Part shown: in pieces, positions 27,001 through 30,000 of the stretch
Numbering within the stretch: the first letter of the stretch is position 1
How the letters are laid out: each line of letters begins with the position of its first letter
NCBI GenBank assembly: GCA_025642075.2
Contig: JAODUO010000117.1
Span: 137,501 to 201,500, forward strand
Length of the DNA stretch: 64,000 nt
Source: Ridgeia piscesae
Lineage: Eukaryota; Annelida; Polychaeta; Sabellida; Siboglinidae
Reading direction: 5' to 3'
The notes under the pieces: model-generated
What the model was told of the DNA's origin: nothing
Databases searched by the model: none
The model's input: the letters and a program-made list of their open reading frames with translations, nothing else
Program-made: the position numbers and the translations under genes

Positions 27001-30000
27001 GTGCAGGGTACAAATGTTTTAAAAATTATTCGGTTAGTGAATTAGGCATATATCATGTTTTATTATTTTTCTTCATACAATTTGTATCAATTTTTTGAGT
27101 GTGAATTATTCTGACAAATGCCATACTTTTAATCCAGGTTTTGTAGAGATATAACTACAATGACACTGTTCACTGTTTGTGGAAAACATTAAATAAGGAA
27201 AACACAATTGCTAAATTAAATATAACCATTGTGAATGTTAAGAGGAAACATTTGAGTAATTTTACACTACCTAGATGACAAGTAACTACATAAGCAATTC
27301 TAATGAAGCCTATCTTTCGTAACACTTGCTGAATCTTACAACAATATTGTTACATTTTACGTACATTGGCACATTGAGCAGTTCCCAGCTGCTACAAAAT
27401 GTATGCACAACAGTTAAAAAAATTAATTTGACTTTTAGCCACTTCATTACAAGAATACAAATTACAAAAAAGAATTACAAATTTCCGACAAATCCTTTTC
27501 ACAATACAATTATAGAAACTTTCCAATGCGGTGTGCCATTCTTACAGAATAATTTTGCATTGTTCTTTCATAATCGAACCATTGATGTTTCTTTTACATT
27601 CACACTTTAACTAGTAATTATTGCTTATCTTTGCACTAAGCAGGGATTAATGTGTTCATTGATACCTACAGGGAGAAACTAGAGACAGGAACACAAAGGC
27701 AGGTAGGCTTTAAACGTGAGAACAAATTAGGAACAAAATAACTTGTTGTCATTAATTAGGAAATAAATATTCTGTTTTCCACATAATAGATCTGTCTGTA
27801 TGAAAATCAAAAGTTTAAATTTTCCATACGTTCAACCGGTGAGGGTCTGAAAATACAGATATTCCCCATATATTGTAATGTGACAACAGACAAACATTTG
27901 TCTCAAAGAAAGCTGCTAGCGATCTTTGAACCCAAAATCGTTTATAAAAAACAACTACAGTGTAAACAAATTTAATCATCATAAATTATTATCGTGTGAA
28001 CCCTTTATAGACTAAACAAATATACATATATATATATGAATAACACGTTTGCCTACCATTTGTGGGAAGAGAGACATAACAGCCATGCCCACTAGACGCC
28101 CCCAGGCAGCCCCTGTGAGGAGGGCGGGGATAAAGACCCCACTGGAGACACTCAGGCCATACGTCCAGCAGCCCAGGATGAAGTAGAGGAACGCAAACAG
28201 TGCCAGTGACAGCACGGTGAAAGACCCTGAAACAAACAGACAGCACCATGAAAGACCCTGAAACAAACAGAGACAGCACCGTGAAAGACCCTGAAACAAA
28301 CAGAGACAGCACCGGTGAAAGACCCTGAAACAAACAGAGACAGCACCGTGAAAGACCCTGAAACAAACAGAGACAGCACCGTGAAAGACCCTGAAACAAA
28401 CAGAGACAGCACCGTGAAAGACCCTGAAACAAACAGAGACAGCACAGTGAAAGACCCTGAAACAAACAGAGACAGCACACTGAAAGACCCTGAAACAAAC
28501 AGAGACAGCACCGTGAAAGACCCTGAAACAAACAGAAGACTAGCAAAACAGTGAAAGACCCTGAAACAAACAGAGACAGCACCGTGAAAGACCCTGAAAC
28601 AAACAGAGACAGCACCGTGAAAGACCCTGAAACAAACAGAGACAGCACACTGAAAGACCCTGAAACAAACAGAGACAGCACAGTGGAAGACCCTGAAACA
28701 AACAGAGACAGCACACGGTGAAAGACCCTGAAACAAACAGAGACAGCACCGTGAAAGACCCTGAAACAAACAGAGACAGCACAGTGGAAGACCCTGAAAC
28801 AAACAGAGACAGCACACTGAAAGACCCTGAAACAAACAGAGACAGCACAGTGAAAGACCCTGAAACAAACAGAGACAGCACACTGAAAGACCCTGAAACA
28901 AACAGAGACAGCACCGTGAAAGACCCTGAAACAAACAGAGACAGCACACTGAAAGACCCTGAAACAAACAGAGACAGCACAGTGAAAGACCCTGAAACAA
29001 ACAGAGACAGCACCGTGAAAGACCCTGAAACAAACAGAGACAGCACAGTGAAAGACCCTGAAACAAACAGAGACAGCACACGTGAAAGACCCTGAAACAA
29101 ACAGAGACAGCACCGTGAAAGACCCTGAAACAAACAGAGACAGCACCGTGAAAGACCCTGAAACAAACAGAGACAGCACGGTGAAAGACCCTGAAACAAA
29201 CAGAGACAGCACCGTGAAAGACCCTGAAACAAACAGAGACAGCACCGTGAAAGACCCTGAAACAAACAGAGACAGCACGTGAAAGACCCTGAAACAAACA
29301 GAGACAGCACCGTGAAAGACCCTGAAACAAACAGAGACAGCACCGTGAAAGACCCTGAAACAAACAGAGACAGCACAGTGGAAGACCCTGAAACAAACAG
29401 AGACAGCACCGTGAAAGACCCTGAAACAAACAGAGACAGCACCGGTGAAAGACCCTGAAACAAACAGAGACAGCACCGGTGAAAGACACTGAAACAAACA
29501 GTGACAGCACCGTGAAAGACCCTGAAACAAACAGAGACAGCACGGTGGAAGACACTGAAACAAACAGAGACAGTACCGTGAAAGACCCTGAAACAAACAG
29601 AGACAGCACCGTGAAAGACCCTGAAACAAACAGAGACAGCACCGTGAAAGACCCTGAAACAAACAGAGACAGCACCGTGAAAGACCCTGAAACAAACAGA
29701 GACAGCACCGTGAAAGACCCTGAAACAAACAGAGACAGCACGGTGAAAGACCCTGAAACAAACAGAGAAAACAGTGTGCCAGACACTGAAAAAGACACAG
29801 CTAACACTGTTGAGAGGCCCCAATACAGGCCGATATTACACCATGAAAGACCCTGAAACAGACAGACTTCACATTGAACTGGATTAGCCCATGTGATTGT
29901 TCATACAGTTTTCTTACCTGGTTTGCTATGTAGAACAGCTATAAGACACTGCTCGGGAGTTTTGAAGAAGAGTGATGACATCACATTGTGTTCGCCATCT

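Follow-up and report, generated by a model that had tools for sequence, protein, structure and literature searches.

A minisatellite spanning an intron/exon junction repeats the splice acceptor dozens of times in a CLC-7-type gene of the annelid Ridgeia piscesae

How does an intron come to carry dozens of copies of its own splice acceptor, and which of them would the spliceosome use? The question is raised by a stretch of 64,000 nucleotides from Ridgeia piscesae (contig JAODUO010000117.1, positions 137,501 to 201,500, hereafter the window), in which we modelled a gene for a CLC-7-type H+/Cl- exchanger using relatives and exon-by-exon tblastn. All 42 junctions of the model are of the GT-AG type, and the joined sequence contains a single stop, at its end. 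Further exons at the 5' end were not found in modelling, and the least certain boundaries are the E2 donor and the acceptors of E3 and E21, which had poor matrix scores. Among the best 120 of 2,684 matches to the joined exons, the best by score was Owenia fusiformis (58% over 97% of the query), and the closest by identity among the matches listed was the siboglinid annelid Lamellibrachia satsuma (81% over 67%, and 91% in exon E13). The named relatives among the matches listed are CLC-7-type proteins, on which the domains PF00654 and PF00571 are annotated (precomputed). The features on which the question turns are the following.

11977..62382, minus strand: CLC-7-type H+/Cl- exchanger gene, 22 exons modelled (E0 to E21)
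29918..30011, minus strand: exon E12, upstream of the array, from the gene model
28227..29917, minus strand: intron E12-E13, 1,691 nt, mostly array
28057..28226, minus strand: exon E13 (GSFTVLSL...GVFIPAL...), 170 nt
28204..29768, minus strand: 33-bp minisatellite, extending into exon E13 (TRF and unit alignment)
28227..28236, minus strand: true acceptor, TTTGTTTCAG
28237..28267, minus strand: 31-nt unit adjoining exon E13
29786..29795, minus strand: diverged copy of the acceptor (TTTTTCAG), not part of the regular array
29853..29862, minus strand: second diverged copy of the acceptor (TCTGTTTCAG), close to the intron's 5' end

A preliminary description of the locus had read this array as a 33-bp minisatellite made from a splice acceptor and the start of its exon, with about 47 acceptor copies and a 31-nt unit next to the exon, and on all three counts it was confirmed. 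TRF found 47.2 copies of 33 bp with 95% matches at 28204-29768. Each unit consists of the last 10 nucleotides of the intron, TTTGTTTCAG, followed by 23 nt resembling the start of E13; the common unit is TTTGTTTCAG plus GGTCTTTCACGGTGCTGTCTCTG, the exon begins with GGTCTTTCACCGTGCTGTCACTG, and the exon-like part is identical at 21 of 23 positions. The acceptor word TTTGTTTCAG occurs 47 times on the minus strand, the true acceptor included, which leaves 46 exact copies upstream, and a junction probe of the E13 acceptor (12 + 12 nt) had 47 more matches with up to five mismatches in its own intron. Unit length is quite regular (33 nt in 38 of the 46, 34 nt in four, and 31, 32, 35 and 38 nt in one each). 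In total, the intron holds 60 AG dinucleotides and 54 TTTCAG sites, made up of the 46 exact upstream copies, five that arise through a unit variant, the two diverged copies and the true acceptor. A CTG at intron positions -13 to -11 and another at exon positions +21 to +23 stand 33 nt apart across the E13 junction, a pair that could perhaps suit slippage between short repeats.

The E13 acceptor is not the only junction of the gene with an array. Two donors are repeated in the same manner, and two further arrays abut a junction.

61714..62177, minus strand: donor-side array at exon E0, units of ~36 bp made of the exon end plus GTGAGTG, 8 junction-probe copies
17896..17977, minus strand: array on the donor side of E19, 2.9 units of 28 bp (exon end plus GTAA), 2 junction-probe copies
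31370..34772, minus strand: 64-bp array starting at the first intron base after E11; it abuts the donor, which is not carried intact
39985..40431, minus strand: 21-bp array ending 1 bp from the E6 acceptor; it abuts the exon, which is not in the unit

The 24-nt sequence at a junction was repeated in the adjacent intron in three of 42 cases (E0 donor, E13 acceptor and E19 donor), against three of 581 exon-internal control probes with any match in neighbouring introns. Among 8,400 random intronic positions of the gene the figure was 33.5%, because arrays fill 34% of those positions, and outside arrays it fell to 0.8% of 5,519. Junctions are thus repeated more often than exon interiors and less often than the intron at large. 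As to placement, five of the 15 minisatellites have a junction no more than 2 bp away, where 0.39 would be expected (0.42 in a similar test), and none of 2,000 random placements reached five, in a test that counts the focal array, chosen in advance, among the five. With all 28 TRF arrays taken together, five were near a junction against 0.78 expected, and one of 2,000 placements reached that number. Of the extra donors in the E0 array, the first five (62112, 62076, 62037, 62001 and 61965) keep the frame and the full length and, if used, would add 12 to 13 residues per unit in the N-terminal region, while six further donor-like sites among those listed do not keep frame or full length. The gene also contains a TCTC-rich array of ~4 kb in intron E19-E20 (13564-17533). 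A CLC-7 paralog on another contig (C457, 187000-196900), which matches the named Ridgeia protein P0100 exon by exon at up to 100%, had no junction-spanning array in 9.9 kb; two intronic minisatellites are found there, neither of them across a junction.

A second gene of this genome, SMC3, identified by phmmer against solved structures (E = 9.2e-24 and 1.4e-12), carries an array of the same kind. One of its donors (contig C210, L030:9004-10000, continued in L036) leads into an array of 26-bp units with 41 tandem GTAAGT words, i.e., 40 extra donors, spaced by 26 nt in 36 intervals and by 34 nt in four. The unit joins 14 nt like the exon end to the first 12 nt of the intron. A second SMC3 donor has a 12-bp array within ~10 nt (L030:5995-6531).

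Arrays of this build have been named "mirages" in amphioxus, where they are known from Adh3, troponin C, globins and PGBD5 (PMC3087553, PMC3902484, in the portions available). As these portions describe them, lancelet mirages are tandem units across an exon/intron boundary, at acceptors as well as donors, many of which keep their AG or GT. The array in intron E12-E13 has the same design: its unit spans the boundary in register (10 intron plus 23 exon-like nucleotides), it adjoins the authentic boundary, running at 28204-29768 into the exon that starts at 28226, and the splice signal is kept in 47 of 47 copies of TTTGTTTCAG (true acceptor included), as in the 41 GTAAGT words of SMC3. The host is an annelid and not a lancelet, which we do not hold to be defining. 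Mirages are therefore present in at least two genes of the Ridgeia piscesae genome. The tandem duplication of the intron/exon junction that had been suggested as the origin is supported, because the unit is in register with the junction and the same kind of array occurs at two donors of the host gene and in SMC3.

We examined what each upstream acceptor would do by joining in silico every TTTCAG site of the intron (n = 54), and only these, to the upstream exons. The true acceptor reads through to the normal protein end. Translation from the 53 others stops in E13 (20 sites), in E14 (15) or inside the array itself (18), so that none gives a full-length product. The earlier claim that only the nearest acceptor keeps the frame holds in effect, though not by length, since 18 of the 53 upstream sites preserve the frame by length, yet run into a stop inside the array. 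Acceptor strength was scored with a small home-made matrix built from the other 21 acceptors of the gene: the score was 12.8 bits for the true site and 11.9 bits for 42 of the 54 TTTCAG sites, and one of the 53 others exceeded the true one. The copies had been called equivalent, and locally they nearly are. Local sequence hardly separates the last acceptor from the others; exon body and distance to the donor do, and these probably decide the choice among them. Hiding of the upstream acceptors by RNA structure was considered and rejected, as a 324-nt fold of the exon and its nearest units had a z score of -1.26, with 11 of 100 shuffles folding equally well or better.

We propose the following course of events. 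First, a segment composed of the 3' end of the intron (E12-E13) and 23 nt from the start of E13 was duplicated in tandem, as the make-up of the unit shows. The array would then have grown into the intron by slippage or unequal exchange, the exon retaining its own copy. Each unit resembles a complete acceptor, in which the intron-derived TTTGTTTCAG is combined with exon-derived pyrimidines and the word TTCAC. This word stems from the exon-derived part, lies ~24 to 25 nt before the next AG, and is branch-point-like under the yUnAy rule. The spliceosome would most likely take the last acceptor, by exon definition, because only there does the exon have its normal length (170 nt) and a real exon body before the donor. 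Occasional use of an upstream TTTCAG would lead to a premature stop in 53 of 53 cases, and degradation would be the likely fate of these mRNAs.

Two proteins from elsewhere bear on this. The predicted protein of Lamellibrachia satsuma (P0065) joins E12 and E13 directly, which is a gene prediction from another worm, at the protein level. A metagenome protein (P0002, from a 1,150-base contig) shows a single difference from the window over 58 residues. Ahead of the exon it has LSLSVSG, against LSLFVSG in the units of the present array. The LSLSVSG would fit an array unit at the corresponding position in the genome of another worm, the nearest unit being in frame. After the exon, the intron sequence of this contig differs from ours at several places, and it perhaps comes from another species. 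The excess of placements at junctions, the direct join in Lamellibrachia, the undisturbed splicing of lancelet mirages (see below) and the LSLSVSG of the metagenome protein lead us to favour a mirage over its rivals. We consider it probable that the array arose as a mirage by duplication of the junction, most likely as a near-neutral by-product, and that the last acceptor is most likely the one used. Against such a choice it may be said that the true acceptor does not clearly exceed the others in strength, 42 of the 54 lying within 1 bit of it.

The rival that fares best takes up the variable, mostly frameshifted transcripts of the preliminary description: upstream acceptors would be used appreciably, much of the transcript pool would be frameshifted and lost to decay, and transporter levels might thereby be reduced or adjusted. 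Such noise might be expected from 53 upstream TTTCAG sites, most of them locally near the quality of the true one, all leading to a premature stop, and all reached by transcription before it. However, lancelet mirages are reported to leave regular splicing undisturbed, according to the available text of PMC3087553 and PMC3902484, and any upstream choice would lengthen the exon, to 201 nt already at the nearest site, against 39 to 234 nt for exons of the host model and SMC3, that is, to a size beyond this range or nearly so. For these reasons, we regard splicing noise in this gene as unlikely.

A different possibility is that the array serves some function and is maintained for it; it might, for instance, regulate splicing through its variable length or provide a site prone to recombination. 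The splice words do not vary across units while other columns do. In the focal array, none of the 10 columns of the splice word is polymorphic against six of the 23 others (p = 0.09, a post hoc and weak test), and in SMC3 the comparison is none of 10 against six of 16 (p = 0.035) or, for GTAAGT alone, none of six against six of 20 (p = 0.17), again post hoc and weak. An unvarying splice word is not predicted by pure neutrality and counts, weakly, against a near-neutral by-product. The placement of arrays at host-gene junctions beyond chance and the first five in-frame E0 donors, each unit with its 12 to 13 residues, point in the same direction. Against this stand the weakness of the column tests and the paralog without a junction-spanning array, and we judge a maintained function to be quite improbable. 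That the array is an assembly artefact, or a satellite resembling the exon start by coincidence, might be thought of in a draft genome with gaps (runs of N in L018) and with array copy numbers that are often wrong in drafts, but is very improbable given the in-register identity (10 of 10 positions at the intron end and 21 of 23 at the exon start), variant units that are scattered and not copied in blocks, independent cases at three other junctions, and a nucleotide search, using the exon together with the first units, in which the matches outside this contig (C117) were a single paralog exon (77%) and two repeats that look unrelated (70 to 72%). The paralog exon is that of the CLC-7 gene on C457, and the two repeats, on C25 and C1046, were judged unrelated from their coordinates and TRF arrays. 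Viral contigs gave 44 pattern matches, none encoding a relative.

An interferon-induced gene reportedly contains a minisatellite with multiple donor sites; by the title of that report, the E0 and SMC3 donor arrays are alike, while the focal array repeats an acceptor instead. The lancelet Adh3 units, at 10 to 72 bp in the available text (PMC3087553, PMC3902484), belong to the same size class as ours. The globin arrays described there have six and three units in two haplotypes, of ~150 to 160 bp, in contrast to the 46 extra acceptors and 40 extra donors in short units found here; splicing and length instability were studied in lancelets, whereas the present case is known from one assembled copy. 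In human segmental duplications, internal tandem repeats of ~30 bp occur at exon-intron boundaries, with 27 intron modifications (PMC2812944, available in part). These resemble our arrays in unit size, position and a capacity to alter splicing or form introns, but as far as that text goes they number about four on average, in recent primate paralogs and with transcript support, against dozens of units known from DNA here. We found no junction-spanning minisatellite from an annelid in the open-licence literature, in which such arrays are known from lancelets and boundary repeats from humans. Minisatellites are described in the first intron of an earthworm metallothionein (PMC12783039) and in an abalone intron (PMC6905558), and the available parts of both accounts do not state whether a junction is spanned. 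What is new is the annelid host, the copy numbers and the several cases in one gene; the mirage class itself was known.

Junction-spanning minisatellites are thereby extended from lancelets to an annelid, with 46 extra acceptors and 40 extra donors that are locally almost identical to the true site. The copies differ mainly in position, so such introns offer direct access to the question of how the spliceosome selects a site. Mirages have been proposed as raw material for new introns (in the available portion of PMC3087553), a proposal on which these arrays bear, and they are also a potential trap for gene annotation.

Whether junctions are a general source of minisatellites in this genome was addressed with a systematic sample of 20 stretches of 10 kb (L016-L035; bases 50,001-60,000 of contigs between C5 and C285, taken at intervals of 10 or 15). 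After removal of low-scoring, repetitive, overlapping and array-covered segments, 33 were kept, many of which may not be exons. In these 200 kb, two of 66 exon-like ends lay within 30 bp of an array (control, 1.5%) and two of 66 within 60 bp (control, 2.9%), with no significant excess. When 42 exon-like segments of L009-L035, with 84 ends, were scanned for repeated junctions, three had repeats, namely a simple GT repeat, an array before an acceptor (L018) and an array at an SMC3 donor (L030), and on inspection none of the three had exon sequence in its unit. SMC3 lay partly within the systematic sample by chance, and its mirage was reached by following another array past the edge of L030. The L018 array, of 16 bp, ends just before the acceptor (L018:4298-5000, contig C180) and borders a run of N on its far side; the exon there matches the membrane region of neurotransmitter-gated ion channels, below the Pfam cut-off.

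Splice-like sites were no more frequent in the array units of the sample than in reversed units (n = 29; donors, 0 versus 2; acceptors, 1 versus 1), and in those of the window the counts were three donors versus none and one acceptor versus none (n = 18). Genome-wide, triples of CAGGTAAGT gave 674 matches versus 628 for the reversed pattern, and triples of AAGGTGAGT gave 688 versus 532 for the control, where matches within one array are not independent. Counted by eye as distinct arrays among the matches listed up to contig C132, there were 11 for the donor and 5 for the control, which are small numbers. A general enrichment of arrays at junctions was not shown by the 200-kb sample and the genome-wide pattern counts. 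It is a tentative and rather doubtful idea that vestimentiferan splice junctions are recurrent birthplaces of minisatellites, so that many genes would carry dozens of serial, nearly identical donors or acceptors and some arrays, such as the in-frame one at E0, would feed isoforms of different protein length. If it were true, the choice of the last of 47 like acceptors would pit exon definition against first-come, first-served splicing in a natural experiment. One of the sampled stretches also holds a 24-bp unit repeated ~387 times over more than 9 kb (L034:712-10000, contig C270), open to the end of the stretch and with long open frames on both strands.
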